From: Rhodomicrobium sp. R_RK_3
Lineage (GTDB): Bacteria > Pseudomonadota > Alphaproteobacteria > Rhizobiales > Rhodomicrobiaceae
Length of the DNA stretch: 64,000 nucleotides
Reading direction: 5' to 3'
Assembly (NCBI RefSeq): GCF_002198715.1
Contig: NZ_MWLK01000006.1
Location: 286,486 to 350,485 of the forward strand
A model generated the notes under the pieces. That model was given only the letters and a program-made list of their open reading frames with translations, was not told the origin of the DNA and made no database searches. Of the stretch, positions 11,701 to 49,286 are shown piece by piece. The position numbers were made by a program, and so were the translations under genes. Position 1 is the first letter of the stretch, and each line of letters opens with the position of its first letter.

Positions 11701-12406
11701 GTACGAGGATGGGCGCCTCGGCGAGTTGTTCATAGATATGCACAAGGAAGGCGCGGCTTTCCGGTCACTTATGAACAATTTCGCCATCGCCATCAGCCTC
11801 GGCCTGCAATACGGGGTGCCGCTGGAGGAATATGTCGACGCCTTTACCTTTACGCGCTTCGAGCCGGCCGGGCTTGTTCAAGGCAATGATACGATCAAGA
11901 ATGCAACCTCCATTCTTGATTACATTTTCCGCGAACTCGCCGTCTCCTATCTCGGCCGCAACGACCTCGCCCATGTCGATCCATCCGAGATCGACAATAT
12001 GACCGTGGGCGCGGGCGTCGCCGAAGATAAGGGCCATGCCGCCGTCTCCGCCGACCGCTATATGAGCCGCGGCATGATGCGCGGCGCTCTTAACCATAAA
12101 GTTGTCATGGTTTCGAGCGAGGCTGTCTCTTCGGGCGAGGGAGACGGTCCCGTTGCAAAGATCCGGCAGGCGCTAGCGGCGTCGGTCGGCCATGTCCATG
12201 GCAACAACGCAATGGCGATCACTCCGGCTGCCCATGTACACACTTATGTCGCGCCAGTTGAAAAATCCGAAAGCGCACTTCGCGTCGAGGCCCGAATCAA
12301 GGGCTATGAGGGCGAGGCCTGCGGCGATTGCGGAAATTTCACCCTGGTCCGGAACGGCACTTGTCTGAAATGCGACACTTGCGGTTCGACCAGCGGATGT
12401 TCCTGA
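8711..12406 (+). CDS. nrdJ: Vitamin B12-dependent (class II) ribonucleoside-diphosphate reductase
   Basis: A 1,231-residue class II reductase that makes deoxyribonucleotides using adenosylcobalamin, so it works with or without oxygen. Visible signatures are [20 protein letters not shown] (active-site Cys near residue 476), the loop [38 protein letters not shown], and a C-terminal Cys-rich tail [10 protein letters not shown] and [11 protein letters not shown] that carries the redox thiols and a zinc ribbon. The ATG at 8711 ([11 protein letters not shown]) follows GAGGGACAGG and matches family starts; an upstream in-frame ATG at 8651 is less likely. It is monocistronic or followed by an unknown gene after 138 bases. 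Confidence 0.96.
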
Positions 12407-12544
12407 GTATCACATAAGTTGAATGCCGCCGGATCATCGGCTGGGCCGCGAGGAAAGTGGCCCGGCCGTCAATCCGGAGTTTGGCGCGTTTCGGCTCTTC
12501 CTGAAACAAAGCGGGGGGCGGCCTAGCGGCTGGCAACGGAGTAA

Positions 12545-13270
12545 ATGGGAATTCTTTCGACCAATGATGAAGGGCACCAGGAGTCCATCGTCTACTTTCT
12601 GAGCGAGGCGCTTCGCGCCGCCATCGAAGCCGGCGACCGGCTACAGCTCAGTGTCTGCGACATGCCGCAGCTTGCGCCCGGCATGGACTGCTCGGAAATC
12701 GCCAGCAAGCTGGCGAGCTTCCGGCAATACACGCACAGCCTGTGGAGCTGTGAAGTGATGATGCTCGCCAAAATCCTGCGCGCCCGCGATCTGGCCAAGG
12801 AACTGCGGCTGTACGAGCCCGAACTTAGACCCGAGATCGACACCTTCCGTCTGGCGACGGTGAACAGCTCGGACCTGCAAGACACGCTTTTGCCCGACGC
12901 CCAGAACGTCTTCAACGGCGCGGTGCAGCCGAAGCGGTTTCTGGAAGCGCGCGGCTTTCTCGGTTTTGACGGCGTCGGTAAGAACGATCCGCTGCTTGGC
13001 TATAAGGTTGCCGGTCGCGTCGATGTGCGGCTGCTGCTTGATGCTTGCGAAGCGCTGCATTTCGGCCTTGCCGCACGCTACGGCTTCGACGCGCTGCCCT
13101 CGCGTGTGCTGATCGGCCATGCCGGCGGCGAAGAGGTCAGCCTCTTGGGCGACGATACGGAAGAGCCGTTCCTGTTGACGGAACTCAGCGAGATTGTCGG
13201 CGAGGACGGATCAGCGCTGCCGTTCGACTGGAACAGCTTGCCGGTGAACGGTCAGGTGCTGCGGCATTAG
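12545..13270 (+). CDS. Hypothetical protein downstream of nrdJ
   Basis: A 241-residue soluble protein that I do not recognise. The start has GGAG at 12538-12541. The N-terminal half is helical and acidic (SIVYFLSEALRAAIEAGDRL, ELRLYEPELRPEIDTFRLAT). The middle has GAVQPKRFLEARGFLGFDG. The C-terminus has LPSRVLIGHAGGEEVSLLGD. There is no signal peptide, membrane segment or clear catalytic motif. Third-position GC and a good ribosome binding site argue for a real gene. It lies between nrdJ and the convergent cpdR. Confidence 0.7.
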   Translation: MGILSTNDEGHQESIVYFLSEALRAAIEAGDRLQLSVCDMPQLAPGMDCSEIASKLASFRQYTHSLWSCEVMMLAKILRARDLAKELRLYEPELRPEIDTFRLATVNSSDLQDTLLPDAQNVFNGAVQPKRFLEARGFLGFDGVGKNDPLLGYKVAGRVDVRLLLDACEALHFGLAARYGFDALPSRVLIGHAGGEEVSLLGDDTEEPFLLTELSEIVGEDGSALPFDWNSLPVNGQVLRH

Positions 13271-34064: not shown

Positions 34065-35885
34065 TTATTCGACGGTCACCGACTTCGCAAGATTGCGCGG
34101 CTGATCGACATCGGTGCCGAGCAGCACCGCCGTGTGATAGGCGATAAGCTGCACCGGCAGCGCGTAGAGGATCGGCGTGATGAAGCCGTGCGCTTTGGGC
34201 AGCCGGATGTCGGCAAGAAGCTGCGTGCCGGGCGCGCCGGCATCCTCGCTGGTGATGAGGACGATCTGGCCGCCGCGCGCCGCCACCTCCTGCATGTTGG
34301 AGATGGTCTTGTCGTAGAGCCCGTCGCGCGGCGCGACGACGATGACCGGCACGGTTTCGTCGATCAGCGCGATCGGCCCGTGCTTCAGCTCGCCCGCCGC
34401 GTAGCCTTCGGCGTGGATGTAGGAGATTTCCTTCAGCTTCAGCGCGCCCTCGAGGGCGATGGGATAGTGGATGCCGCGCCCCAGATAGAGCACGTCGCTG
34501 GCATGGGAGAGCACATGGGCGAGCTTTTCGAACTCGTCCTCGCGGCGCAGCACGTCGTTCATCAGGCGCGGCAGCTCGACCAGCGCCCGCACCAGTTCGG
34601 CCTCCTGGCGGGCGTCGATGCTGCCGCGGGCGCGGCCGGCGGCGATGGCGAGGCAGGCCAGCACGGTGAGCTGGCTGGTGAAGGCCTTGGTCGAGGCGAC
34701 GCCGATTTCGGGACCGGCGAGCGTCGGCAGCACCACGTCTGAGTCGCGCGCGATGGTCGAGGTGGCGACGTTGACGATGGAGAGGATGGCCTGTTTCTGC
34801 TCGCGGCAATAGCGAAGGCTGGCCAGCGTGTCCGCCGTTTCGCCCGATTGCGAGATGAACAAGGCGACGCCGTCGGCCGGCAGCGGGGCCTCGCGGTAGC
34901 GGAATTCGGAGGCGACGTCGATCTCGACCGGCAGCCGCGCATAGCGCTCGAACCAGTATTTGGCGACGAGGCCGGCGTAGAAGGCGGTGCCGCAGGCGGA
35001 AATGGTCAGCCGCGAGAGCTTGGCGAAATCGATGTCGGCGCCGCGCAGGGTGACGCGCTCTTCGGCAAAATTCACGTAATGGCCGAGCGTCCGGCTGATG
35101 ACGTCGGGCTGCTCGTGGATTTCCTTGGCCATGAAATGGCGGTGATTGCCCTTGTCGGCGAGGAGCGCGCTGGCCTGGGTGAGCTGGATCGGGCGGTCGA
35201 CCTTGGCGCCGCTCTCGTCGCGGATGAGGACGCCAGCGCGCGAGATGATGGCCCAGTCGCCCTCTTCGAGATAGGTGACGCGGCCGGTGAAGGGGGCGAG
35301 CGCCATGGCGTCGGAGCCGAGATACATCTCGCCCTTGCCGTAGCCGACGGCGAGCGGGCTGCCGCGCCGGGCGCCGATCATCAGATTGTCCTGGCCGGAG
35401 AACAGCATGGCGAGCGCGAAGGCGCCTTCGAGCCGCTTCAGCGTTTCCGCGACCGCCGCCTCGGGGGTGGCGCCGCGCTTCAGCTCGCGGGTCAGCAGAT
35501 GGACGACGGTTTCGGTGTCGGTCTCGGTCTCGAACACCGCGCCGCTTTCCTGCAATTCGGCGCGCAGCTCGCGGAAATTCTCGATGATGCCATTATGGAC
35601 GACCGAGACCTTGGCCGTCATATGCGGATGGGCGTTGCGCTCGCTCGGCGCGCCGTGCGTCGCCCAGCGCGTGTGGCCGATGCCGGCGGTGCCGCCGAGC
35701 GGGCTTTCGAGCAGCAGGGTCTCCAGATTGCGCAGCTTGCCCTCGGCGCGGCGGCGGGTCAGCACGCCGTTCTCGACGGTGGCGACGCCGGCTGAATCAT
35801 AGCCGCGATATTCGAGCCGCTTCAGCGCGTCGACCAGCCGCTCCGCGACCGGCTCGTTTCCCAAAATCCCGATGATTCCACACAT
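34065..35885 (-). CDS. glmS: Glutamine--fructose-6-phosphate aminotransferase (isomerizing)
   Basis: A 606-residue enzyme forming glucosamine-6-phosphate, the entry to peptidoglycan and lipopolysaccharide amino sugars. The start is fixed at 35885 because the N-terminal nucleophile Cys2 follows the initiator Met (MCGIIGILGN). Glutaminase motifs are EYRGYDSAGVA, IGHTRWATHG and HNGIIEN. The isomerase half has two SIS domains (SACGTAFYAGL, ISQSGETADTLASLR, EGALKLKEISYIHAEGYAAG) and ends in the conserved LAKSVTVE. It lies 112 bases after glmU. Confidence 0.97.
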   Translation of the reverse strand: MCGIIGILGNEPVAERLVDALKRLEYRGYDSAGVATVENGVLTRRRAEGKLRNLETLLLESPLGGTAGIGHTRWATHGAPSERNAHPHMTAKVSVVHNGIIENFRELRAELQESGAVFETETDTETVVHLLTRELKRGATPEAAVAETLKRLEGAFALAMLFSGQDNLMIGARRGSPLAVGYGKGEMYLGSDAMALAPFTGRVTYLEEGDWAIISRAGVLIRDESGAKVDRPIQLTQASALLADKGNHRHFMAKEIHEQPDVISRTLGHYVNFAEERVTLRGADIDFAKLSRLTISACGTAFYAGLVAKYWFERYARLPVEIDVASEFRYREAPLPADGVALFISQSGETADTLASLRYCREQKQAILSIVNVATSTIARDSDVVLPTLAGPEIGVASTKAFTSQLTVLACLAIAAGRARGSIDARQEAELVRALVELPRLMNDVLRREDEFEKLAHVLSHASDVLYLGRGIHYPIALEGALKLKEISYIHAEGYAAGELKHGPIALIDETVPVIVVAPRDGLYDKTISNMQEVAARGGQIVLITSEDAGAPGTQLLADIRLPKAHGFITPILYALPVQLIAYHTAVLLGTDVDQPRNLAKSVTVE

Positions 35886-35997
35886 AAAATATCCCCTAAA
35901 TCGCAAAAGCACCGCGCGAACGCCGCCGGCCGCTGTTTAATCCGGCGGCGTCGGAATTCCAAATCAAAGCCAGTTACAGACTGTTGCAGGGGAAGGG

Positions 35998-37338
35998 CTA
36001 TTTCTGCCGTCTTTCCCTGTTCCGCGCGGCCCATCCCGGAATGACCTTCTGGGTGTTCCGCTCCAGCGCCAGCGCGCCGGGCTCGACATCCTGCGTGATG
36101 ACGCTGCCCGAGCCGATATAGGCGCCGTCGCCGATGGTGACGGGGGCGACCAGCGCCGAATTGGAGCCGACGAAGGCGCCCTTGCCGATGTCGGTCTGGT
36201 GCTTGTGGAAGCCGTCATAATTGCACACGATGGTGCCGGCGCCGATATTGGCTCCGGCCCCGACGCGGGCATCGCCAATGTAGCTCAGATGGCTGATCTT
36301 GGCGCCGGTTTCGATCACCGCCTTCTTGATCTCGACGAAATTGCCGATCTTGGCCTTGTCGCCTATCTCGGCGCCCGGCCGCAGCCGCGCGAACGGACCG
36401 ACCACCGCGCCCTCGCCGATATGGGCGTGCTCCATATAGGAATTGGCCTTGATCTCGGCATTGTTCTCGATGCGCACGGCGAGGCCGAAAAAGACGTTCG
36501 GTTCGACGGTGACGTCCTCGCCGATAACGGTGTCGTAGCTGAAGGTGACGGTGTCGGGGGCGATCAGCGTGGCGCCGCCGCGCATGGCCGCCTCGCGCAG
36601 CCGCTTCTGCATGAGCTGCTCGGCGCGGGCGAGCTGGACACGGTCGTTGACGCCCATCACCTCCTCTTCGGGGCAGGTGACGATGGCCACGGGGAGACCG
36701 TCCGCGACGGCGATCTCGACGGCGTCGGTGAGGTAATATTCGGATTTGGCGTTGGCATTGCCGATGCGCTCCAGGATCGGCAGGATGGCGCCGGCGCGGA
36801 AGGCCATGACGCCGGAATTGCACAGGCGGATGGCGCGCTCGGCGGGGCTGGCGTCCTTCTCCTCGCGGATGGCGATGAGCGCTCCGGCTTCATCGCGGAT
36901 GAGGCGGCCGTAGCCTGCCGGGTCGGCGGCCTCGCAGCCGAGCACCGCGACGGCCGCGCCTTCGGCGAGCGCGGTGCGCAGGCGAACGAGCGTCTCGGGC
37001 GTCAGCAGCGGGGTGTCGGCATAGAGGATGATGACGTCGCCGGCGAAATCGGCGAGCGCCGGGCGGGCGGCGAGCACCGCGTTGGCGGTGCCGAGGCGCT
37101 CAGGCTGGATGTAGAATTGCGCGGCGGGCGCCAGCGGCTCGACGGCGCGGCGCACCTCGTCCATGTCAGGGCCGATGACGCAGGCGAGCTCCGAGACGCC
37201 GGCCTGCAGCGCGCCCGCCACCGCATGGGCGACCATCGGCCGGCCGGCAACCGGGTGCATGACCTTGGGCCGGGCCGAGTTCATGCGGGTGCCAAGTCCG
37301 GCGGCGAGGATGATGGAAAGCCAGGGCTGGGAGGTCAT
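35998..37338 (-). CDS. glmU: Bifunctional UDP-N-acetylglucosamine pyrophosphorylase/glucosamine-1-phosphate N-acetyltransferase
   Basis: A 446-residue enzyme carrying out the last two steps to UDP-GlcNAc. The N-terminal uridyltransferase has IILAAGLGTRMNSARPKVMH and ILYADTPLL. The C-terminal left-handed beta-helix (from about residue 250) shows hexapeptide repeats and the acetyltransferase region KIGNFVEIKKAVIETGAKIS, LSYIGDARVGAGANIGAGTI and VCNYDGFHKHQT. It lies directly upstream of glmS on the same strand, so precursor supply is clustered. Confidence 0.97.
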   Translation of the reverse strand: MTSQPWLSIILAAGLGTRMNSARPKVMHPVAGRPMVAHAVAGALQAGVSELACVIGPDMDEVRRAVEPLAPAAQFYIQPERLGTANAVLAARPALADFAGDVIILYADTPLLTPETLVRLRTALAEGAAVAVLGCEAADPAGYGRLIRDEAGALIAIREEKDASPAERAIRLCNSGVMAFRAGAILPILERIGNANAKSEYYLTDAVEIAVADGLPVAIVTCPEEEVMGVNDRVQLARAEQLMQKRLREAAMRGGATLIAPDTVTFSYDTVIGEDVTVEPNVFFGLAVRIENNAEIKANSYMEHAHIGEGAVVGPFARLRPGAEIGDKAKIGNFVEIKKAVIETGAKISHLSYIGDARVGAGANIGAGTIVCNYDGFHKHQTDIGKGAFVGSNSALVAPVTIGDGAYIGSGSVITQDVEPGALALERNTQKVIPGWAARNRERRQK

Positions 37339-37780: not shown

Positions 37781-39145
37781 TCAGAACTTGATGCGTGAGC
37801 CGACAAGGACGGTGGTCAGGTCGGAGCTGAGATCGAGGCTGCCGCCGTCGATGGGGTCGGTCGCATCGGCGGAGATGTCCCAGAAGGTCGCCTGGGCATA
37901 GAGTTCGAGCGCGGCGCTGTCGACCCGCTGAACCACGCCGAAGCCCCAGCGCTCGGTGTCGCTCGAGGTGATGACGTTGTCGAAGACGTCGTCGCCAACC
38001 GCAGTGCTGCCGACGACGATGCCGCGCGCGAAGTCGCTATAATGGCCGTATTCGCCGTAGAAGGTCGTGGAGCCGTAGCTCAGGAACCGCTTTTCGAGAC
38101 CGAGCTGGACATACCAATAATCGGCGTCGCTATCGTTCTCGAACTCGGTGTTGAACTGGGTCGCGCCGGCCGCGAAAGCAACGTAGATGCCGGTCGGGAT
38201 GTGCATGACCGAGATCGAGCCCAGGACGTTATCGAAATCGTTCAGGTTGCGCCCGAGGTCGAAGTTGTTATCGATAAAGAAATCGAAGTCGTCCTGGCTG
38301 TTGTCGCGGAAGCTCGCGACAGCGACCGCGGCGGCGACACGGATCGAGTTCCACTCGTTCTTATAACGCAGGGCAGCGTCCCAATAATCGTTTTCGCCGA
38401 CGCTTGCCGATGCGATGAAGCCGTAGATCGAGGGCGAGTCGTAGCGGACCAAGTCGTCACGGCCGCCGTCGAGGCTGTTCGCGAAATCGGCAAGATTGGC
38501 ACTGGCGAAGGTCGGGGCGGTGGCGCTGCCGTTCACCATGGTGAAGCTGTTGCCAACATAGAGCGTGGCGACGCTGATCGAGTTGCCGAGCACGACTTCG
38601 GCGGCGCCGTCGGTGGTCTGCGACTGATGGCCGAGGGTGATGCGGCCAAGCCGCTCGCTCTCGATATAGACGTAGTTCATGCGGATGCGGATTTCGTCGA
38701 TCGGATCGTCGAAGACCGAGAGGTCGTCGCCGGCGCCGTTCAGCACGTTGCCGTTGTCGACCTTGTCGGAGGCGGCGTCCTGGTAATCGAGTTCGATATT
38801 GTAGCCGGCCTTCCAGCCGGGCTGGATGCTGCCCTCGCCCTTGAAGCCGAAGCGGCTGCCGGAGGTGTCGTTGTCGACGATGTAGGTATCGCTGCCGCCG
38901 ATATCGGCGTCGAACCACAAGATGGCCTTGTTGACCTGACCGTAAATCTGCAAGGAGACAACACGGTTGCCCTTGCGCGCCGTGGTCGCTTCGAGTTCGG
39001 CGACACGGTCTTCAAGATCCGAACAGCAGTTTCCGCCTACATCCGCAGCAAACGCCGGAGCATAGGCTGCATGTCCCATGAGTATGCCTGCCGCCGCGAC
39101 TAAAGTCGTTAGACTTGTTGTCTGCGTGATTCCGCGAATCATCAT
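37781..39145 (-). CDS. Outer-membrane porin with N-terminal coiled coil
   Basis: A 454-residue trimeric-type porin. It has a signal peptide (TSLTTLVAAAGILMGHAAYA...AFA before ADV), then a short heptad region DLEDRVAELEATTARKGNR as in rhizobial porins, then a 16-strand barrel beginning VVSLQIYGQVNKAILWFDAD and ending in the C-terminal Phe (VGSRIKF) needed for outer-membrane insertion. It is rich in Asp in the loops (NDTSGSRFGFKGEG, DDFDFFIDNNFDLG), suggesting cation selectivity (inference). The start is ATG 39145 (or 39142); an upstream TTG and GTG are less likely. It is monocistronic with a strong terminator. Confidence 0.9.
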   Translation of the reverse strand: MMIRGITQTTSLTTLVAAAGILMGHAAYAPAFAADVGGNCCSDLEDRVAELEATTARKGNRVVSLQIYGQVNKAILWFDADIGGSDTYIVDNDTSGSRFGFKGEGSIQPGWKAGYNIELDYQDAASDKVDNGNVLNGAGDDLSVFDDPIDEIRIRMNYVYIESERLGRITLGHQSQTTDGAAEVVLGNSISVATLYVGNSFTMVNGSATAPTFASANLADFANSLDGGRDDLVRYDSPSIYGFIASASVGENDYWDAALRYKNEWNSIRVAAAVAVASFRDNSQDDFDFFIDNNFDLGRNLNDFDNVLGSISVMHIPTGIYVAFAAGATQFNTEFENDSDADYWYVQLGLEKRFLSYGSTTFYGEYGHYSDFARGIVVGSTAVGDDVFDNVITSSDTERWGFGVVQRVDSAALELYAQATFWDISADATDPIDGGSLDLSSDLTTVLVGSRIKF

Positions 39146-39486
39146 TTTCACCGCCAAACGGGCTCCATGTTAAGATTTGCAGGCTGCGTCCACCTGCATC
39201 TGCCTTTCCGAGATTTACGCGTTCACTGCTGGTGGGAATCGGCATTTGCAACTTCTTATTGCACCATTTGGCTTATATGCAATCCATGGTTGCGGCAATG
39301 TTAATTCACCCGCCGCCCCCGGAATCTCCCCCTGCCTGTGACAAATTTGCAAAGTTTCGCGGCGGCGTTTTCGGAGGAAGCCAGACTGTGGGAAAGACCA
39401 CGTGATGAACGCTAAAAACCCCCGTCCGGCTAAGACCGGAACGGGGGCTGAGCGACGGGGGCCATGGATGAGCTCGGCGCGGGCGA
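39146..39486. other. Intergenic region holding porin promoter and hlyD-like terminator
   Basis: 341 bases. The half near the porin is AT-rich (39240-39300) and probably holds its promoter and a long leader. The other half holds a minus-strand terminator at 39414-39447. No gene is seen. Confidence 0.5.
39414..39447 (-). terminator. Rho-independent terminator after hlyD-like gene
   Basis: On the minus strand, CCCCCGTTCCGG (39447-39436) pairs with CCGGACGGGGG (39429-39419), one base bulged, followed by TTTTT (39418-39414). It ends the two-gene TackOD1-HlyD unit. Confidence 0.85.
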
Positions 39487-40482
39487 TCAGAACCAGCGCG
39501 AGGTGATCTCGACCTTCTCCAGCAGCGGGAAGGGCGAGGTGTCCAGCAGCTTGATCTTGGCGAGCTGGCTGCGGTCGCGCGGCTTGAAAGTGTTCTGGAA
39601 CTCCTTGGCCAGCGCATCCGTCACCGGCAGAATCTCGATGATCTCGCCGGACGTGACGTGCCGCCCATCCGAAAGCGTGACGTTCTGACCGACATTGATG
39701 GAGAACAGGTAGCGCCGGGGCAGATAGGCGAGCACGTAGGGCTCGCCGAAATAGATCGACAGCATCGGGTCGCCGATACGGTAGACATTGCCGATCGAGG
39801 GCACCGTCGCCCCGATCGAGCCGGAGACCGGCGAGGTGATGATGCCTTCGGCATAATGCGCCTGCAGATTGGCCAGCGCCGATTCGGCATCGTCGCGCGC
39901 CTCCTGCAGCGTCATCAATTCCCGCTCCAGCATTTTGAGCTGGGTGCCGAGTTTGACGCGGTCCTGCTGGGCGTTGTAATTGGCTGTCAGCGCGGTGTCG
40001 TAGCTGGAGGCGGTGGTGAAGCCGGCCTGATTGAGCTGGTCGAACTTGCCGACGACGCGGGTTGCCTCCTCCTCGCGCTTTTTCGCCAGCGGCAGCAATT
40101 CCGAGACGGTCTCGGAGCGGACGCGGAATTCGACATTGTCGGCGACCAGCCGGGCGCGGCGGGCGGAGAGATCGGCGAGCCGCTCCAGCATCTCGGTGGA
40201 TTGCAGCCGCATCAGCACCTGGCCGGCCTCGACCTGCTGGCCTTCCTTGACGTCGACCTGCTGGACGCGCACCACATAGGTGGTCGCGACGACCGTCTGG
40301 TCCTTCAGCACCAGCCCGTCGGCGCGCAGGAAAATCAGGTCGCCGAACAGATAGTTCATCACCGCGACGACGAATATCGTCAGGATGCCCAGATAGATCG
40401 TCCTGCCGACGGGATTGGCCGCGCGGCGCTTCTCATTGGCCAGCGTGTCGGGCCGGGACCGCTTCGTCAAAGCGCGAATCAT
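39487..40482 (-). CDS. HlyD-family periplasmic adaptor, Alg44-like without PilZ
   Basis: A 331-residue inner-membrane protein with one N-terminal helix (IYLGILTIFVVAVMNYLFGD), a barrel-sandwich lipoyl-like domain (VVRVQQVDVKEGQQVEAGQV), a helical hairpin (LLPLAKKREEEATRVVGKFD to LMTLQEARDDAESALANLQA), then the second lipoyl half (EGIITSPVSGSIGATVPSIG) and a C-terminal beta-barrel. This is the membrane-fusion fold used in type I secretion, efflux and polysaccharide export (Alg44 has it after a PilZ domain). No transporter or outer-membrane partner is nearby. It lies 57 bases after the receiver-TackOD1 gene, implying co-expression and a shared function (inference). Confidence 0.82.
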   Translation of the reverse strand: MIRALTKRSRPDTLANEKRRAANPVGRTIYLGILTIFVVAVMNYLFGDLIFLRADGLVLKDQTVVATTYVVRVQQVDVKEGQQVEAGQVLMRLQSTEMLERLADLSARRARLVADNVEFRVRSETVSELLPLAKKREEEATRVVGKFDQLNQAGFTTASSYDTALTANYNAQQDRVKLGTQLKMLERELMTLQEARDDAESALANLQAHYAEGIITSPVSGSIGATVPSIGNVYRIGDPMLSIYFGEPYVLAYLPRRYLFSINVGQNVTLSDGRHVTSGEIIEILPVTDALAKEFQNTFKPRDRSQLAKIKLLDTSPFPLLEKVEITSRWF

Positions 40483-40539
40483 CGTCGTCTCCCATCGATA
40501 AAAAATGTCCGGCGCGTCCCGGTGTTGGGACGGCCGGCA

Positions 40540-42387
40540 TCAGGCAAAATCCTCCGGCCCGAAAATGTGAATCGTCACGCCGAGATCGAGACGCAAGCCG
40601 GCGCTGGCATCCTCGCGCAGCTTGACGATGGTCAGTTCGGTCTCGATGGGCGCGACGCCGTCGAGCAGGGCGAAATCATAGGAATGGCCTTTGACCACCA
40701 GGCCGCGGTCGCCGATCTGATGGCGCAGATTCTCCAAAAACAGCTCGCGCGCCTGGCTGAACTGGCGAAGGCCGGCCTCGCGGATGATTTCGCGCTCATT
40801 CTCATAAGAAAGGTTGAGGACGCTGAAGGGGGTCTTGGATTCATTGTATTTCTTCGCCGCCACGTTCAGCGCGACGACGAGGTCGAGCGGCAGGTCGGAG
40901 AAGCGCATCGAGCGCTGCACCGGTCCGCGCAGGGCGTCGCCCATCTTCAGGAAGGCGATGCCTTCGTCGGTGAGGGCATAGGAGTAGACGTCGCGGGTTT
41001 GCGCCGCCTCGCCATCGACATGGACGTGGCAATCCAGGCAGACGAAACCGATCGAGGGCTCGGAGCTGGAATGATTGCAATTGCCGCAGATGATCGCCGA
41101 ACCGGGCTTGTCGTAATCGACGCTGAAATGGGTCAGCTCCTGGCGGCATTTCGGGCAGATCAGCTTGTCGCCGCGCTTGAAATCCGATTCGACGCCCTGA
41201 TAGGCGCAGCGGAAATGATGCAGATACTGCTCCTCGCGCAGGTCCGATGACCGGCATTGCGGGCATTCCTCGCGGATATGCAGGCGCGAGGAGCCGCAGC
41301 GGTAGCAATTGTGGAAGCGGTCGAAAAATTCACGGCGCAGGAAGCCGTTTTTGCACTGTTTCTCCGCCTCGCGGATCAGCTCGGCATTGCCGAGCGCCAG
41401 ATTGTAGCGGATCAGCGAGGGCTCGCCGGGATCGTAGCAGGCGGTCAGCTTTTCGCCGCGCACATAGGCGCGGCCGAGCAGCTTCTCGCCGAGATCGGCC
41501 GTCACCACCAGATCGTGGTGGATCTGCGCCCGGCGCTGGTGAAAGGCCTGCACCAGCCCGCGGATGGCGTCGCCATCGCCGAAGGAGGCGGTCGAAGCGT
41601 CGTAATCGGCGCGCGCGCCGAGGCTGCCGCTCAGGTCGATGAGCGGGAAGAGATGCAGCGGGCGGCGCTGCCAGATCTGGGCCAGGGCCGTCGGGTCGGC
41701 ATGGTCGCGCACCAGGATGGCGTCGATATCGAGCTGGTCGGAGGAGATGTGCGGGCGGCCCGGCGAGAAGCGGGCGGCGTCGAAATCCTCCGGCCAGCGC
41801 AGCAATTCCAGGCCGAGCGCCCAGGACGGCTCGGAGCCGCGCACCGAGCGCAGGGCCGCGCCGCCGCGCGCGTCCAGCGCGGTCTGCGCGGCGGAGGCCG
41901 GCTTATGCGGCTCCTCGCGCCCCGCCGCCGGCGCCTCGAGCGGCGTGGTGCGTTCGATGACGTCGCAGACCTCGTAGACATCGAGCGGCTTGGGGATGAT
42001 CTGGTCGAAATTCTCGCAATTTTCCTTGTGCGACAGCAGCCCCTCGACATCGGCGGTGATGGCGATCAGCCGCGCCTGCGCCTCGCCGACCCGCTCGCTG
42101 CGATATTTCTGGGCCACCTGCAGCCCGTCGAGCTTGGGCAGCCGGAAGTCGATCAGGGCGACGTCATAGGTGTGCTGGCGCAGCGCGCTCAGGGCCTCCT
42201 CGCCATCCTGGGCGATATCGACGAGATGTCCGCGCTGCTCCAAGATCAGCTTCAGCAAATCTTGCGTGACCGGGCTGTCCTCCGCCACCAGAACCCGTTT
42301 CTGGGCTGGGGCGTCTTCGTCGATATTATAGGTTTGCGCTTGGGTCACAGAGGCTTCTTTCAATTCTTTATTGGATAAATTCGTCAT
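40540..42387 (-). CDS. Response regulator: receiver domain plus TackOD1 zinc-ribbon output domain
   Basis: A 615-residue protein. Residues 30-145 are a receiver (VLVAEDSPVTQDLLKLILEQ, phosphoacceptor Asp80 in VALIDFRLPKLDG, and IIPKPLDVYEV). The rest matches the TackOD1 output domain: a mixed region, then several zinc ribbons (NCYRCGSS, ECPQCRSSDL, KLICPKCRQE, IICGNCNH, FVCLDCHVHV), and a C-terminal part with RSMRFSDLPLDLVVALNVAA and SYENEREIIREAGLRQFSQA. There is no DNA-binding or GGDEF domain. The function of TackOD1 is unknown; phosphorylation from the divergent kinases is likely. An upstream TTG at 42402 is less likely than ATG 42387. Confidence 0.8.
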   Translation of the reverse strand: MTNLSNKELKEASVTQAQTYNIDEDAPAQKRVLVAEDSPVTQDLLKLILEQRGHLVDIAQDGEEALSALRQHTYDVALIDFRLPKLDGLQVAQKYRSERVGEAQARLIAITADVEGLLSHKENCENFDQIIPKPLDVYEVCDVIERTTPLEAPAAGREEPHKPASAAQTALDARGGAALRSVRGSEPSWALGLELLRWPEDFDAARFSPGRPHISSDQLDIDAILVRDHADPTALAQIWQRRPLHLFPLIDLSGSLGARADYDASTASFGDGDAIRGLVQAFHQRRAQIHHDLVVTADLGEKLLGRAYVRGEKLTACYDPGEPSLIRYNLALGNAELIREAEKQCKNGFLRREFFDRFHNCYRCGSSRLHIREECPQCRSSDLREEQYLHHFRCAYQGVESDFKRGDKLICPKCRQELTHFSVDYDKPGSAIICGNCNHSSSEPSIGFVCLDCHVHVDGEAAQTRDVYSYALTDEGIAFLKMGDALRGPVQRSMRFSDLPLDLVVALNVAAKKYNESKTPFSVLNLSYENEREIIREAGLRQFSQARELFLENLRHQIGDRGLVVKGHSYDFALLDGVAPIETELTIVKLREDASAGLRLDLGVTIHIFGPEDFA

Positions 42388-42790
42388 ATTACCATTTAAC
42401 AAACAGACCCTTACGGCCTCCCGTCGAATACAATTTCGCGATTCTTACGAGCGCCCACGCTTCCGGCAGCCGGATCAAGGCGGGGCGCCGCGCCAAGGAC
42501 GTCCGAGGGCTTTCTTGAGGCAAATCTCGACTCACTAATCTGGCCTTTACCTTTAATTGCAAAACTCTGCAATACACCTAATGCGTGCAATCCAATTTTA
42601 TCGTGAGCCGTTGCATGGCCCCTACAGTCGAAACCGCCCTTTCCCCGGTGCCGGAGACGCCCGCCTTGCGGGTCAGTCACCCGCAAGCTCTGCCGCTTGT
42701 GCTGGCATGGCCAGCCGACCGGCGCGCACGGAACCCTCTGGCCGGACGGCGCGTGCGGTGAGACGGGCTTGGGGTTCAGGTAGGAACGGC
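42388..42790. promoter_or_regulatory. Divergent region between TackOD1 regulator and kinase cluster
   Basis: 403 bases. The side near the TackOD1 start is AT-rich (42360-42410) and contains TTTAAC. A second AT-rich stretch lies at 42535-42605. AGGAACGG precedes the kinase start at 42791. No gene is apparent. Confidence 0.4.
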
Positions 42791-44347
42791 ATGACGCTGA
42801 AATCTGCGGTGAGGCTGGCGATCATCGGCGCGGCGCTGGCCGGCACTCTCGCGCTTGCGGCGGCGGGAAGCGCCTATGTCGCCGTGCGGGCGGCGCAGGG
42901 CCGCGTCGCCTTCGCGGGCGGGGTGACGTCCGGCGCGGCCGAGCTCAATCTGCGGACCGCGGCGCTGTTCCTGCGCGGCTCGGAAGACGCGGCCTTGCAA
43001 TGGCACCGGCAGCATGAGTCATTGGCCGCCTCGCTTGCCGGGGCGCCGCCCATGGGGGGCCGCGCCAACCGGCTGGCCGCAAGGCTCGGCCGCGATCTCG
43101 GCGCGCTCAAAGCCACGGTTTCCAGCCTTGAAGCCGCGACCGGCAGCGGCCGCGACGCGCAGATCGCCACCGCCCAGGCGCAGTCGGCGGCGATCCAGGC
43201 GCGGGCCGCCGAGTTGCAGACGCTGATGATCGCGGCGGCCGACACCACCACCAAGGCGATGTTCCTGCTCATCGGTGGCGCCTTGATGCTGCTGGCGCTC
43301 GGCGGCGGCCTCGTGCTGCTCTTGCTGGCGACCGGCTTGCTGAACCGGATTTTGCGGCTGCGGGGCATCATTCAGGCGATCGGCCGGGGCGATCTGGACG
43401 TCGAAATCCCGATCCCGGCCGGCGACGAGATGGGCGACGTGCTGCGCGAGCTGCATCACATGCGGCTCGGCCTGCTGCAATCGATGGGCGAGCTCAGCCG
43501 CCTCAACCTGGAGCTGGTCGGCAGCAAGGCGCATCTGGAAGACCGCGTCGCCGAGCGCACCGAAGGGCTGGAGGCCGCCAACCGCGAGCTGGAAGCCTTC
43601 AGCTATGCGGTCTCGCACGATCTGCGCGCGCCGCTCAGGACCATCGCGGGCTTCAGCAAGGCCGTGCTCGAGGATCACGGGCCGCGCCTCGACGCCGAGG
43701 GCAAGGCCATGCTCGTCCGCGTCCACCGCGCCGCCGGGCAGATGACCCAGCTCGTCGAGGATCTGCTCAACCTGTCGCGGCTGACGCGCCCGCCCGACCT
43801 CGCCGACGCCGATCTCTCCGCCATCGCCGCGCGCATCGGCGAGACCTTGCGCGAGGAGGAGCCCGCGCGCAGCGTGCGCCTGACCATCCAACCCGGCCTC
43901 CGTGCCCGCTGCGACGGGCGGCTGATCGCGGTGCTGCTGACCAATCTGCTCGAGAATGCCTGGAAGTTCACCGCGCAGACCGCTCACGCCGAAATCGAAT
44001 TCGGCCAGCGCGCCGAAGCCGGGCAGCGCACCTTCTTCGTGCGCGACAACGGCGCCGGCTTCGACATGGCCCACCGGCAAAGGCTGTTCCAGCCGCTCCA
44101 GCGCCTGCATTCGGCCGAGGCGTTTCCGGGCAGCGGCATCGGCCTCGCCACGGTCGCGCGCATCGTGCGGCTCCATGGCGGCCATGTCTGGGCCGAGGGC
44201 AAGCAAGGCGAAGGCGCCAGTTTCTACTTCCAGCTCGGCGCCGGCGAGGCGGCGCTTCCCCTCGCACCGCAGCGGACCGCCGCACGGGCGCGCGGGCGGG
44301 AGACGGAGCGGCGCGTGCTGCCGCTTCGCAGCGCCCTGAAGGAATAA
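42791..44347 (+). CDS. Membrane sensor histidine kinase with HAMP domain
   Basis: A 518-residue kinase with two membrane helices (about 8-32 and 157-180) enclosing a ~120-residue helical periplasmic sensor rich in Ala. A HAMP linker follows (RLRGIIQAIGRGDLDVEIPI), then a phytochrome-type transmitter: AFSYAVSHDLRAPLRTIAGF with the phosphoacceptor His near 276, LLTNLLENAWKFTA (N box), FVRDNGAGFDM (G1) and GSGIGLATVARIV (G2). The C-terminus adds a basic Ala/Arg tail. The start at 42791 (MTLKSAVRLAIIG) follows AGGAACGG. It is the first of five same-strand signalling genes; the next begins six bases after its stop. Confidence 0.9.
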   Translation: MTLKSAVRLAIIGAALAGTLALAAAGSAYVAVRAAQGRVAFAGGVTSGAAELNLRTAALFLRGSEDAALQWHRQHESLAASLAGAPPMGGRANRLAARLGRDLGALKATVSSLEAATGSGRDAQIATAQAQSAAIQARAAELQTLMIAAADTTTKAMFLLIGGALMLLALGGGLVLLLLATGLLNRILRLRGIIQAIGRGDLDVEIPIPAGDEMGDVLRELHHMRLGLLQSMGELSRLNLELVGSKAHLEDRVAERTEGLEAANRELEAFSYAVSHDLRAPLRTIAGFSKAVLEDHGPRLDAEGKAMLVRVHRAAGQMTQLVEDLLNLSRLTRPPDLADADLSAIAARIGETLREEEPARSVRLTIQPGLRARCDGRLIAVLLTNLLENAWKFTAQTAHAEIEFGQRAEAGQRTFFVRDNGAGFDMAHRQRLFQPLQRLHSAEAFPGSGIGLATVARIVRLHGGHVWAEGKQGEGASFYFQLGAGEAALPLAPQRTAARARGRETERRVLPLRSALKE

Positions 44348-44353
44348 AGCGGC

Positions 44354-45484
44354 ATGCTGCGGGCGATCGCCGACTATCTGGGCCCAGCCTCGCTCGTGCC
44401 TCAGGGCTATTGCCTGCTGTGGCGGCAGGATCTCGTCACCCTGCACGCCGTTTCGGACATCGTCCTCGCCGTCGCCTTCGTCATCATCCCCGCCGGGCTC
44501 TGGCATTTCGCCCGGCACCGGACCGATCTGGAATTTCGCGGCCTGTTCCTCCTGTTCGCGGCCGTCATCCTTTTGACCGGCATCACCCATCTGATCGACA
44601 TGATCACCACCTGGATGCCGATCTATGGCGCGCACGGCGTCATGAAGGCGCTCACCGCGACCGTCGCCGTCGCCGCCGCCTATGTGCTCTGGCCGGCGAT
44701 CCCCAAGGCGCTCTCGGCGCCGACGCTCGCCAGCCTGCGCGACGCCAACCGGGAGATGGCCAAGCTCGTCACCGACCGCGACGCCATGCTCGCGGCCTGC
44801 AACGCCGAGCTGACCGCCGCCAACCGCGAGCTCGACGCCTTCACCTACACGATCTCGCATGACCTGCGCCGTCCGCTGACCAGCATCAACGCCTATGGCG
44901 CCAAGCTCGCCGAGACGCATGGCGGCCAGCTCGACGCGGCCGGCCGGGAATTGCTCGAGCGCATCCGACAGACCAGCATCACCACCGGCGCGCTGATCGA
45001 CGACCTGATCCACATGTCGCGGCTGACCCGGGTGCCGCTGCAGATGACCAGCGTCGACCTCTCGGCAATGGCGGCCGACATCATCAAGGAGTTGCAGCGC
45101 GCCGAGCCGGACCGCGTCGTCACCGTGCTGATCGCCGAGGGCGCCACGGCCGAATGCGACCGCGACCTGATGCGCCTCGCCCTGGCGCATCTGCTGAAGA
45201 ACGCCTGGAAATTCACCTCCAAGCAGGAGAACGCCAAGATCGAATTCGGCTATCAGCGGCGCGGCACCAAGACCATGTACTACATCCGCGACAATGGCGT
45301 CGGCTTCGACATGGCCCATGCCGGCAGGCTGTTCCTGCCCTTCCGGCGGCTGCACGAGGCGACCGAATTCTCCGGCACCGGCATCGGCCTCGCCGTGGTC
45401 GCCCGCATCATCCACCGCCATGGCGGCGACATCAAAGCCGAGGCCAGCCTGGGCAAAGGCACCTCGATTACCTTCAGCCTCTGA
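44354..45484 (+). CDS. Histidine kinase with ethylene-receptor-like membrane domain
   Basis: A 376-residue kinase. The first ~120 residues form three helices aligning with plant ETR1: VSDIVLAVAFVIIPAGLWHF and FAAVILLTGITHLIDM correspond to its ethylene-binding helices. With ETR1 numbering, Asp25, Ile35, Pro36, Ile62 and His69 are kept as D35, I45, P46, I72 and H79 at identical spacing, but Tyr32 is F42 and the copper ligand Cys65 is T75. The transmitter has His169 in TYTISHDLRRPLTSINAYG, LAHLLKNAWKFTS, IRDNGVGFDM and GTGIGLAVVARII. It closely resembles the transmitter of the preceding kinase, so the two are paralogues. There is no GAF or receiver domain. Confidence 0.88.
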   Translation: MLRAIADYLGPASLVPQGYCLLWRQDLVTLHAVSDIVLAVAFVIIPAGLWHFARHRTDLEFRGLFLLFAAVILLTGITHLIDMITTWMPIYGAHGVMKALTATVAVAAAYVLWPAIPKALSAPTLASLRDANREMAKLVTDRDAMLAACNAELTAANRELDAFTYTISHDLRRPLTSINAYGAKLAETHGGQLDAAGRELLERIRQTSITTGALIDDLIHMSRLTRVPLQMTSVDLSAMAADIIKELQRAEPDRVVTVLIAEGATAECDRDLMRLALAHLLKNAWKFTSKQENAKIEFGYQRRGTKTMYYIRDNGVGFDMAHAGRLFLPFRRLHEATEFSGTGIGLAVVARIIHRHGGDIKAEASLGKGTSITFSL

Positions 45485-45505
45485 ACCGAGCGGGCCGGGG
45501 AGACG

Positions 45506-47464
45506 ATGCAGCTCAAAGTCCTGATGATCGAGGATTGCGAAGACGACGCGGTCCTGCTGGCGCGCTATCTGAAACATTGCGGCTTCGATCCGAACTGGCA
45601 GCGCGTCGACCGCGCCGAGGATCTGGCCGAGACGGTCGAGAGCCGGCGCTGGGATCTGGTGCTGTGCGATCTCAACATGCCGGCGCTGACCGCCTTCGAG
45701 GCCGCCGACTGCGTCCGCAACATCAATCCCGACATCCCGATCATCGTGGTGACCGGCGGGCTCGACCCCGATCTGGCCATGCGGCTCGTCCAGCACGGCG
45801 TCCAGGACATCGTGCTGAAGGACGACCTGCCGCGGCTGAAGGTGGCGGTCGGGCGCGAACTGGCGCTGGCGCGGAACCGGCGGGAGAAGACCGCCGCCGA
45901 GCATCGGCTCGCCGCCGCCATCGAGACGCTCGACCAGGGCGTCGCGCTGTTCGACCCCGACATCCGGCTCATCATCTGCAACGAGCGCTACCGGGCGAGC
46001 CTCGACCGCTGCCGCGCCGACATCGTCGCCGGCATCGCCTATGCCGATCTCCTGCGCACCGCCTTCGATCGCGGCCAGTTCGCCGCCCCCGGCGTCGCTG
46101 CCGAGACCACGCTGAAGCGTCTGATGGCCTATCAGCTCCTCAATGGCGAGCCGTTCGAGCAGCAGCAGCATGACGGCAAATGGGTGAAGATGCAGCGCTA
46201 CCGCACGCCCGATGACGGCATGGTCACGGTAACCACCGACATCACGGCGGATAAGCTGCGCGAGGCGGCGCTGGTCGCGCAGGCGGAGCAACTGTCGCGC
46301 ATCAACGCCGATCTGGTCGAGGAAATCCAACGCCGCGAGACCATCGAACATGCGCTGCGCGAGAGCGAGAACCGTGCGCGGGCGATCTTCGAGAGCGCCG
46401 TCGACGGCGTCGTCACCTTCAGCGCCGAAGGGCTGATCGAGACGGTCAATCCCGCCGCCGCCGCGATGTTCGGCTACGCGCCCGAGGAGCTGACCGGCAC
46501 CCATATCCACCATCTGGTGCTGATCGGCACGCCGGATGGCGGCGAGGCGGGCCAGACCGGCGCCCGGCTGGTGACCGGCTGGCGCAAGAGCGGCGAGGTG
46601 TTTCCGGTCGAGCTGACCATCAGCCCGGTGGCGCTGCGCCACCGCACGATCCAGACCGGCATCATCCGCGACGTTACCGAGCGCACCCGGCTCGACCGGC
46701 TGAAGCATGAATTCGTCGCCATGGTCGGCCATGAGCTGCGCACGCCGCTGACCTCGATCCGCGGCTCGCTGGCGCTGCTCGATCATGGCGTCGCCGGCGC
46801 CTTGCCGCCCCGCGCCCAGTCCATGGTCCGCATCGGCCTCGAGAACAGCGAGCGGCTCCTGCGGCTGATCGGGGATATTCTCGACATCGAGAAATTCGAG
46901 TCCGGGAAGATGAGCTTCATCTTCGAGCCGACCGCCGTCGAGGCGCTGGTCGACCGCGCGGTCGAAGCCAATCGCAGCTTTGCCGATCCGTTCAATGTCC
47001 GTTTGCGCGTCGAGCATCTGACGGCCGGCGGCGCGTTGATCCGGGCCGACGCCGACCGGCTGACCCAGGTGCTCGCCAATCTGATCTCGAACGCGGCGAA
47101 ATTCTCACCCGATGGCGGCGTGGTCACCATCGGCACGGAGGCGGCCGGCGGCAATGTGCGCGTCTGGGTCGAGGACCAGGGGCCGGGCGTCCCGGAGGGC
47201 TTTCGCGACCGCATCTTCCAGAAATTCTCCCAGGCCGATTCCTCCGACACCCGCCAGAAGGGCGGCACCGGGCTCGGCCTCAGCATCGCCAAGGCCATCG
47301 TCGAGCAGCATGGCGGCAGCATCGGCTTCGGGCCCGCCGCCGCCGGCCATGGCACGCGCTTTTTCTTCGACCTGCCGCTCTATCGCCGCCGGATCTCGCC
47401 CGGCCAGCCCCAAACCGGACCTCAAACCGAGCAAATCCGCTTGACCAACTCAAACGCTTCTTAA
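45506..47464 (+). CDS. Hybrid kinase: receiver-PAS-PAS-histidine kinase
   Basis: A 652-residue soluble protein. Residues 1-120 are a receiver (LMIEDCEDDAVLLARYLKHC, Asp in LVLCDLNMPALTAFEA, Lys in DIVLKDDLPRL). Two PAS domains follow: one at about 135-250 (LAAAIETLDQGVALFDPDIR) and one at about 285-400 (AIFESAVDGVVTFSAEGLIE, FGYAPEELTGTHIHHLV). The HisKA domain has FVAMVGHELRTPLTSIRGSL with His near 409. The ATPase has LISNAAKFSPDGG, VEDQGPGVPEGF, FQKFSQADSS and GTGLGLSIAKAIVEQHGG. The N-terminal receiver lets it accept phosphate from the upstream kinases. It starts 21 bases after them. Confidence 0.92.
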   Translation: MQLKVLMIEDCEDDAVLLARYLKHCGFDPNWQRVDRAEDLAETVESRRWDLVLCDLNMPALTAFEAADCVRNINPDIPIIVVTGGLDPDLAMRLVQHGVQDIVLKDDLPRLKVAVGRELALARNRREKTAAEHRLAAAIETLDQGVALFDPDIRLIICNERYRASLDRCRADIVAGIAYADLLRTAFDRGQFAAPGVAAETTLKRLMAYQLLNGEPFEQQQHDGKWVKMQRYRTPDDGMVTVTTDITADKLREAALVAQAEQLSRINADLVEEIQRRETIEHALRESENRARAIFESAVDGVVTFSAEGLIETVNPAAAAMFGYAPEELTGTHIHHLVLIGTPDGGEAGQTGARLVTGWRKSGEVFPVELTISPVALRHRTIQTGIIRDVTERTRLDRLKHEFVAMVGHELRTPLTSIRGSLALLDHGVAGALPPRAQSMVRIGLENSERLLRLIGDILDIEKFESGKMSFIFEPTAVEALVDRAVEANRSFADPFNVRLRVEHLTAGGALIRADADRLTQVLANLISNAAKFSPDGGVVTIGTEAAGGNVRVWVEDQGPGVPEGFRDRIFQKFSQADSSDTRQKGGTGLGLSIAKAIVEQHGGSIGFGPAAAGHGTRFFFDLPLYRRRISPGQPQTGPQTEQIRLTNSNAS

Positions 47465-47518
47465 TGTGTCCGGTCTAAAACTGTAACTGAGGGCGTCCGA
47501 TCCGAAGGAGAATGAAGT

Positions 47519-47917
47519 ATGAAAGAATTACAGCGGATCACCTACGTCGAGGACGAGCCCCATATTCGCGAGATCGTGCAACTCGCTCTAGAAGAACTGG
47601 GCGGCTATACTTTACATGTCTGCGAAAGCGGGGCGGAGGCGCTGGATTCGGCGCCGATCTTCCATCCCGATCTGGTGCTCTTGGACGTCATGATGCCCGG
47701 CATGAACGGCATCCAGACCTACCGCGCCCTGCGCGAAGTGCCCGAGATCGCCATCACGCCCATCATCTTCGTCACCGCCAAGGCGCAGAGCCACGAAATT
47801 GAGCAATATAAGCTCTTGGGCGCGGCGGGCGTCATCTCGAAGCCGTTCAATCCGATCACGCTTCCCGCCGACATTCAGGCCATCTGGATCCAGGTCCTGA
47901 ACGAGCCGCAAATCTAG
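47519..47917 (+). CDS. Single-domain response regulator
   Basis: A 132-residue lone receiver. YVEDEPHIREIVQLALEELG provides the acidic pair, LVLLDVMMPGMNGIQTYRAL the phosphoacceptor Asp, IIFVTAKAQ the switch Thr, and GVISKPFNPITLPADI the Lys. It has no output domain, so it acts by protein contact or as a relay intermediate with the adjacent Hpt protein, whose GTG start comes two bases after its stop. AAGGAG precedes the ATG. Confidence 0.93.
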   Translation: MKELQRITYVEDEPHIREIVQLALEELGGYTLHVCESGAEALDSAPIFHPDLVLLDVMMPGMNGIQTYRALREVPEIAITPIIFVTAKAQSHEIEQYKLLGAAGVISKPFNPITLPADIQAIWIQVLNEPQI

Positions 47918-47919
47918 TC

Positions 47920-48276
47920 GTGCAGGACAAGCTCAACGAGATCATCGAAAGGCATTGCGAGGCGATCAAGCGCAATGCGGAGGAGATGCGTGACATGCTC
48001 GCCGCCGTCGCGGCGGGCGAGACCCTGCCGGCGGCCGGCATCGAGGAAGTGGAAGCGCTGGCACATCAGCTCAAGGGCGGCAGCGGCACCGCCGGCTTCA
48101 GCGAGATCAGCCGCGCCGCCACCGCGCTTGACGATTACCTGAAGCGCCTGCTCGCCGGTCCCGAAGCGGAGATCGTCGCCGGCATGGCGACCGCCCTCGC
48201 GCTCTCGGCCGAGCTCTCCCGCCTCGCCAAACTGGCAGGCCCGGCATCGTCGAAGCTCTATGCGGCGCGCCCCTGA
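47920..48276 (+). CDS. Hpt domain phosphotransfer protein
   Basis: A 118-residue four-helix protein. The phosphoacceptor His, near residue 49, lies in EALAHQLKGGSGTAGFSEIS, the classic HxxKGxxxxxGF pattern. The GTG start at 47920 begins two bases after the receiver's TAG, so translation is coupled. It completes a kinase-receiver-Hpt-receiver set and could pass phosphate to the divergently encoded receiver-TackOD1 protein (inference). Confidence 0.88.
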   Translation: MQDKLNEIIERHCEAIKRNAEEMRDMLAAVAAGETLPAAGIEEVEALAHQLKGGSGTAGFSEISRAATALDDYLKRLLAGPEAEIVAGMATALALSAELSRLAKLAGPASSKLYAARP

Positions 48277-48457: not shown

Positions 48458-49012
48458 TTACGGGAAGCGGACGACCTGGCCGCGTTCGGGCTTGCGCGAG
48501 ACCAGCGTCTTGCCCGGCTTGCCGACCGGGGCCGCCAAGGTTAGCCCATATTGCGCGGCGATGACGCTGCGGATGATGCCGCCGAAATAGGCCTCCGCCG
48601 TCGCCGGCAGGATGGCCGCGTCCTGCATCACCCGCGCCAGCATGTCATAGGCCGCGTTCCAGGCGTCCTTGATTTCGGGCGTGCAATCGGCGCCGAGCAG
48701 TTCCTCCAGCATCGACATCAGCGCGGCTCCCACCGCCGCGTAATGCTCATCCTCGACATCGTAGGACAGATGCCTGCGGCCGAGATCGGCGAGTTCCTGC
48801 GAGACGGTTTCAATCTTGTCCAGCGCCTTCACGACCGTGGCCAGCATTTGCAGGAATTTCAGCTCGTGCTTGGCCATGTCCTGCGGGAAGAGCTGGCGGA
48901 TGCCGGGCGAGAGGCGGAACAGCTCGGCGTAGAAAAAGCTGCTGGCGGCGGCGGCTTTCGGGGCGAGCGCGCGGAAGCTATCCTGCACGATCTTCACCTG
49001 TGCCGGGGTCAT
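48458..49012 (-). CDS. Single-domain haemoglobin with C-terminal extension
   Basis: A 184-residue bacterial globin of the Vitreoscilla/flavohaemoglobin-head type without reductase domain. Helix A starts MTPAQVKIVQDSFRAL. Phe42 (CD1) is in IRQLFPQD and the proximal His81 in LGRRHLSYDVEDEHY. About 45 residues after the globin fold (YFGGIIRSVIAAQYGL then a basic RKPERGQ tail) form an extension. ATG at 49012 is chosen because it coincides with the family N-terminus; an in-frame start at 49126 would add an unrelated leader. Oxygen or NO handling is expected; redox partner unknown. It adjoins the signalling island but faces the other way. Confidence 0.88.
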   Translation of the reverse strand: MTPAQVKIVQDSFRALAPKAAAASSFFYAELFRLSPGIRQLFPQDMAKHELKFLQMLATVVKALDKIETVSQELADLGRRHLSYDVEDEHYAAVGAALMSMLEELLGADCTPEIKDAWNAAYDMLARVMQDAAILPATAEAYFGGIIRSVIAAQYGLTLAAPVGKPGKTLVSRKPERGQVVRFP

Positions 49013-49286
49013 GGCCGTGCGCACGAGGAAAATATGCCCCGCATATTGGGCAAGGCGAATTCTGCTCATGATGCCGGCTCCCTCCCCCGGGGCGACCGCA
49101 AGCTCAGGGGCCTGAAATCGTCGCAATCCTTGCGGCCGAACACGCCAAGCATGGTGCCAATCTGCTCTGTGACCGGCAATTATTGTTGCGTGGGAGATTA
49201 CGGGAAATACGCAATAGCTCGTAGCGAGCGGGGAAAATGCGAGTGAGGATGGTCAGAGGGCGTCGGCGCCCAAGCCCAAGCCGATT

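Follow-up and report, generated by a model that had tools for sequence, protein, structure and literature searches.

When TackOD1 received its name in 2018, it was described as an output domain, present in archaea and some bacteria, with an obscure function (PMC5847659); arCOG06883 is found mostly in thaumarchaeal pilus loci (PMC4858521). The subject here is a TackOD1 locus of Rhodomicrobium sp. R_RK_3, at positions 39487–48276 of a 64,000-nucleotide stretch of contig NZ_MWLK01000006.1 (the whole stretch is called the window below). A regulator with a receiver (REC) and a TackOD1 domain, together with an HlyD-like adaptor, is encoded divergently from five genes for histidine kinases (HK), a lone receiver and an Hpt protein. 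Because relatives mostly encode TackOD1 beside a glycosyltransferase family 2 (GT2) synthase and HlyD, we predict that the relay controls both the production and the export of a surface polysaccharide. On balance we favor a reading in which the regulator gates a GT2 encoded elsewhere in this genome, which with HlyD would make and export the polysaccharide under the divergent kinase-REC-Hpt relay.

Machines that pair a GT2 with HlyD are already known (PMC9495663; PMC5567048; PMC4594306; PMC12430437). The BgsBA system for mixed-linkage glucan in rhizobia consists of a glycosyltransferase gene and a gene for an HlyD-like partner, and BgsA binds cyclic di-GMP (c-di-GMP) by its own C-terminal domain, whereas the window has a separate regulator (PMC9495663; PMC5567048). 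No Sinorhizobium or Rhizobium plasmid record is among the nine HlyD matches at 1e-15, and the GT2 query matches such records at ~32%. Alg8/Alg44 and the cyanobacterial XcsAB likewise join a GT2 synthase to an HlyD-type partner, but there PilZ is found in Alg44 or in a PilZ-bearing XcsA, while Pfam lists none in the four GT2s tested here or in the window's HlyD (PMC4594306; PMC12430437).

Closest to the regulator in role are BcsE of E. coli-type cellulose secretion, a receiver-GGDEF tandem with both domains degenerate that serves a polysaccharide synthase, and PelD of the Pseudomonas Pel system, a degenerate-GGDEF regulator of synthase-dependent export (PMC7439463 and work cited there). Unlike BcsE, whose receiver is degenerate and which binds c-di-GMP by an RxxD motif, the window's protein keeps its receiver motifs and is without RxxD; TackOD1 is not mentioned for BcsE in the available text (PMC7439463). 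PelD senses c-di-GMP by an I-site, whereas the window has a receiver and a relay and has lost RxxD. Set against PelD, BcsE and FimX, the regulator matches in having a predicted GGDEF fold without the catalytic motif. Archaeal REC-TackOD1 proteins share the domain pair and the cysteine pattern (PMC5847659) but have been associated with loci for type IV pili (PMC4858521), and neither a GT2/HlyD link nor a degenerate GGDEF domain is mentioned in the available text of either source. Searches of open-licence PMC literature found neither a GT2 and HlyD with a TackOD1-degenerate GGDEF regulator and a phosphorelay, nor HlyD and a glycosyltransferase combined with a response regulator, a degenerate GGDEF domain or Hpt.

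A TackOD1-GT2-HlyD gene row and the unlinked GT2

A protein search returned 397 TackOD1 homologues, the best 120 of which were listed, all with receiver and TackOD1. TackOD1 was matched in 20 of 199 related genomes, in 18 of them over the cut-off, and an alignment scan of named contigs gave 28 loci, 27 with TackOD1; a scan of genome contigs with a single-protein query returned no relatives. The gene between TackOD1 and HlyD was determined by tblastn. A GT2 stands on TackOD1's strand within 1.3 kb in 41 of the 43 non-redundant loci with downstream sequence, and TackOD1, GT2 and HlyD (at 1e-6 or better) occur together in 39/43. Loci L048 and L049 have the GT2 but no HlyD at 1e-6 (L048 has a 25% HlyD match), and in L067 the order is TackOD1-HlyD-GT2. 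Left out of the locus counts were L071, which is the window itself, L051 (no TackOD1), and L062 and L070, whose contigs are already represented by L026 and L032; L032, which has no downstream sequence, was left out of the GT2 count; the near-identical pairs L041/L042, L043/L044, L053/L054 and L055/L060 were kept. Some frames are broken, by assembly error or real decay: those of the GT2 in L031, L034 and L059 and of the regulator in L027, L034 and L035.

The row recurs outside this set. In a class-wide sample TackOD1 exceeds the cut-off in 9/385 genomes, the window's included, and four of the eight other loci (L122–L125) have the three-gene order. The regulator query matches 13 of 72,556 plasmid records and the HlyD query nine, and in all nine of the latter the TackOD1, GT2 and HlyD matches lie side by side. 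The same row accompanies more distant TackOD1 proteins in Plesiomonas, Alisedimentitalea and Photobacterium (the last by open reading frames (ORFs), without annotation). In Alisedimentitalea a galE gene abuts the row (L131:11288-12298), a hint of a galactose-type precursor. Pfam assigns the four tested GT2s to the GT2 families Glyco_tranf_2_3 and Glycos_transf_2. In the PDB the GT2 profile finds synthases of chondroitin, hyaluronan, cellulose and chitin among many other GT-A enzymes. An initial annotation of the locus had proposed an HlyD-containing envelope or polysaccharide machine as the target; the 39 complete loci support that proposal, although it had missed the GT2, which in this genome lies on another contig.

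The window itself lacks this GT2 gene, regulator and HlyD standing only 57 bases apart. A GT2 remnant was considered between them, and the 57 bases, read directly, hold none. The GT2 profile finds one strong match in the same genome, G000:C7:316196-317431 (626 bits, the next match at 56 bits), and 14 weaker matches. This gene on contig C7 is full length, has the expected motifs and hydrophobic segments, and stands among unrelated metabolic genes, as judged by reading its neighbors; from its QRFRW and acidic motifs we presume a processive-type enzyme. Its similarity to the GT2s of relatives tracks that of the regulator and of HlyD (Spearman 0.78 and 0.79, 39 loci). Across the 199 genomes, 17 have both TackOD1 and the GT2, one has only TackOD1 (G118, 71% complete), one only a GT2 over its limit (G074) and 180 neither. 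Locus L114 of G074, which has a GT2 frame, an HlyD-like frame and a weak TackOD1-like frame of 88 codons, was counted as GT2 without TackOD1. The GT2 limit of 1e-60 was passed by 21 genomes; G003, G005 and G006, with matches of ~1e-64 in frames of 1175–1302 codons and no TackOD1, were taken to hold another enzyme and set aside, leaving 18.

Layout of the locus and its phosphorelay

The features of the locus are as follows.

39487–40482, minus strand: HlyD-like periplasmic adaptor, 331 residues, one N-terminal transmembrane segment (Pfam HlyD_3 4.4e-10; hydropathy; gene order in relatives)
40540–42402, minus strand: REC-TackOD1 regulator (Pfam Response_reg 5e-16 and TackOD1 1.1e-46)
41956–42294, minus strand: receiver domain of the regulator, residues 37–149
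40972–41496, minus strand: TackOD1 domain, residues 303–477, five CXXC and one HXXC (Pfam 1.1e-46; cysteine pattern compared with PMC5847659)
40543–40893, minus strand: C-terminal domain with a predicted GGDEF fold, lacking the GGDEF motif and having GDRG in place of the I-site (model, fold searches, profile, alignment)
42349–42790, no strand: divergent intergenic region separating both arms (bounded by predicted starts)
42791–44347, plus strand: HAMP histidine kinase, two transmembrane segments, ORF from 42557 (Pfam HAMP, HisKA and HATPase_c; hydropathy)
44354–45484, plus strand: ethylene-receptor-like histidine kinase, three transmembrane segments (Pfam ETR1_N 1.3e-29, HisKA and HATPase_c; hydropathy)
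45506–47464, plus strand: soluble REC-PAS-PAS histidine kinase (Pfam Response_reg, PAS_7, PAS_9, HisKA and HATPase_c; hydropathy)
47519–47917, plus strand: lone receiver, likely relay intermediate (Pfam Response_reg 2.2e-25; best matches in relatives lie beside TackOD1)
47920–48276, plus strand: Hpt phosphotransfer protein (Pfam Hpt 5.9e-9; matches in relatives lie beside TackOD1)

All seven ORFs were found in the window on the strands first stated, with HlyD and regulator separated by the 57 bases given above and the genes of the other arm by 6, 21, 54 and 2 bases, so that the description as one divergent locus with gaps of 2–57 bases holds, as do the domain identities proposed for all seven products, each supported by Pfam. 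Full-length homologues suggest a GTG start for the regulator at 42348 (602-residue form), and for the first kinase an ATG at 42791 is more likely than the ORF start at 42557. Hydropathy places no membrane segment in the regulator or the third kinase, one in HlyD, and two and three in the first two kinases. All four module types of a multistep phosphorelay (HK, REC, Hpt, REC) are present, as the initial annotation had said, and they carry acceptor residues: the translations show the His, Asp and HxxKG motifs expected of phosphate acceptors in histidine kinases, receivers and Hpt proteins. The annotation's further statement that the locus has no DNA-binding output agrees with Pfam, which at E up to 0.01 lists none in the seven proteins.

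The lone receiver, the Hpt protein and the TackOD1 regulator are more than chance neighbors, since the best matches of the first two in relatives all fall beside TackOD1. A match to the lone receiver at 1e-15 occurs in 7/17 other TackOD1 genomes, and the best match lies within ~6 kb of TackOD1 in 7/7; Hpt is matched at 1e-3 in 8/17, once in each, and 8/8 stand beside TackOD1. The proposal that relay and regulator belong together is thereby borne out. Around receiver-bearing TackOD1 loci an HK, REC or Hpt gene lies within 7 kb in 18/23 cases, vs. 3/27 around receiver-less ones (0/19 in the main set, 3/8 in the class-wide set). Restricted to loci with at least 5 kb on both sides, the contrast is 13/15 vs. 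0/14, or 1/17 when L122, L123 and L125 are added to the receiver-less loci; L034 and L035, which have broken frames, were left out of the kinase contrast at either distance, and both have kinases nearby. The check that the initial annotation had named, TackOD1-HlyD pairs mostly without the kinases and vice versa as a sign against its circuit, thus gives a mixed result: many pairs do occur without kinases, which would fit a relay dedicated to the receiver-bearing form, and receiver-bearing loci mostly have relay genes nearby, a contrast that is phylogenetically clustered. Plasmid loci of Palleronia and Roseibium repeat the mix of receiver, kinase and Hpt, and a receiver-less plasmid locus of Phyllobacterium has none of it. 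The architecture of the kinases varies between loci.

A predicted degenerate GGDEF domain in the regulator

Both named domains of the regulator are clear, the receiver at 59.3 bits (Pfam cut-off 30.2) and TackOD1 (PF18551) at 159.3 bits (cut-off 32), and the 11 cysteines of the latter, in five CXXC and one HXXC, agree with the pattern described in PMC5847659. For the C-terminal part Pfam lists no domain, and GGDEF is not among the 25 listed of the 44 Pfam families found with 35 members of alignment A1 at E up to 1. The best 50 Foldseek rows and the best 50 VIA rows for a model of this C-terminus are all GGDEF structures; its profile matches the FimX GGDEF domain (3.1e-4); and the Plesiomonas homologue, whose gene sits in a TackOD1-GT2-HlyD row, exceeds the Pfam GGDEF cut-off. 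The regulator is therefore predicted to end in a degenerate GGDEF-fold domain, and the earlier claim that TackOD1 is its only output domain is rejected. An active diguanylate cyclase was rejected, as GG[DE]EF is kept in 0/54 scored homologues of the alignment.

PleD, an active cyclase carrying two receivers, takes the top ten places in the Foldseek search with the whole regulator (E down to 3.5e-10), at a global root-mean-square deviation (rmsd) >20 Å; unlike PleD, the window's protein is without GG[DE]EF and shows no second receiver. The middle domain (residues ~190–318) was rejected as a second receiver, with 0.2% probability from hhalign of our own alignments and PleD rows spanning the domain only at rmsd >20 Å. 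In a VIA search with the whole regulator, receivers alone appear among the matches listed, one domain filling the list.

At the I-site position RxxD is present in 27/54 scored proteins, comprising 21/30 receiver-less and 6/24 receiver-bearing ones. The window's protein, one of the 24, has GDRG instead. Proteins L033 and L038 have a gap at the site and are unscored, L053 was scored as RxxD despite an inserted residue, and L027, with its broken frame, as without. Two neighboring cases were noted: in L058 a second TackOD1 protein without receiver is encoded downstream of HlyD (11892-13235), its C-terminal 151 residues identical to those of the first (alignment A3), and in Photobacterium the gene preceding TackOD1 looks, as read from sequence, like a membrane GGDEF-EAL protein (L132:5335-7338).

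Proposed mechanism and rival explanations

In the mechanism that we propose, the kinases would phosphorylate the lone receiver, whose phosphate would travel through Hpt to the regulator's own receiver. Phosphorylation may then alter how the TackOD1/degenerate GGDEF part contacts the synthase at the membrane, in a manner like that of PelD or BcsE, and HlyD, presumably a periplasmic co-polymerase or adaptor given its link to the GT2 in relatives, would steer the polymer across the periplasm. In homologues that have no receiver, many of which carry RxxD, c-di-GMP would be the gating signal. The best reading gives the regulator a PelD/BcsE-like role in a phosphorelay-gated synthase system. More tentatively, TackOD1 proteins could be gatekeepers of a three-gene system for polysaccharide secretion that is widespread and has a dead diguanylate cyclase at its base; one branch, including this genome, would have swapped c-di-GMP for a dedicated phosphorelay, the regulator's phosphate directly switching the synthase. 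The conserved partner enzyme and the cryptic degenerate GGDEF domain give TackOD1 a testable job, the control of a polysaccharide synthase. The compared cellulose, Pel, alginate and mixed-linkage glucan systems are c-di-GMP targets; if the proposal is true, a working-looking receiver with its own Hpt relay would mean that phosphotransfer controls a synthase post-translationally, and the I-site-bearing and receiver-bearing forms in one gene context would be a natural series for input replacement.

Several observations weigh against this proposal. The GT2 is unlinked in this genome, and for that reason we infer its tie to the locus. L035 and L069 have no GT2 beside TackOD1; in the class-wide loci L126 and L128 the GT2 is on the opposite strand, and L127 and L129 have none within the sequence covered. 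Of the 17 other TackOD1 genomes, 10 give no match to the lone receiver and 9 none to Hpt, and both L063, which belongs to the same family as the source of the window, and L064 combine module and receiver yet lack a relay gene within 7 kb. In a quick tree built from TackOD1 domains, four changes are needed to explain the receiver label, one of them forced by supported branches, which leaves few events behind the kinase and I-site contrasts; an independent-pairs test had too few pairs. No outer-membrane pore was identified, no genome-wide pore search having been made.

The regulator might instead be mainly a c-di-GMP receptor, its degenerate GGDEF domain sensing the nucleotide as in PelD and BcsE (PMC7439463) and its receiver only modulating. 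Those precedents and the frequency of RxxD in the family speak for this, but the window has GDRG and 18/24 receiver-bearing proteins are likewise without RxxD; although another binding mode is conceivable, we regard the receptor role as unlikely. Because the window's protein failed the I-site test, we place the system with synthase-dependent polysaccharide secretion and not with c-di-GMP receptors. The TackOD1-HlyD pair could also have been repurposed here for another partner, the contig-C7 GT2 working apart, as its setting among unrelated metabolic genes and the 14 weaker GT2 matches would allow. That GT2 is nevertheless intact and the only strong match, is kept in 17/18 TackOD1 genomes, and resembles its relatives in step with the regulator and HlyD, which leaves repurposing slightly less probable still. 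That the five-gene relay is merely a neighbor signaling to something else would fit the 24/27 receiver-less modules without a kinase nearby, the lack of one at L063 and L064 despite their receivers, and kinase architectures that vary by locus; with all lone-receiver and Hpt best matches (7/7 and 8/8) beside TackOD1 and the same mix repeated on the Palleronia and Roseibium plasmids, we consider this very improbable. The reading with the regulator as gate of the unlinked GT2 is thus retained.

Among the remaining features, the ETR1_N kinase (44354–45484) retains the copper-motif His but has Thr at the position of Cys65 in plant ETR1, so ethylene binding appears doubtful. A Porin_4 gene follows HlyD (window 37781–39157) and is possibly its outer-membrane partner; in L065 a Porin_4 gene 33% identical to it (10229-11596) is located ~9 kb away from the end with HlyD. 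Beyond this porin gene are GlmU-like and GlmS-like genes for UDP-GlcNAc supply, as read from their translations (window 34065–37338). On the other side, a globin gene (window 48458–49126; Pfam 4.4e-18, a flavohaemoprotein-like match of the N-terminal part only) is convergent with the end of the Hpt gene.

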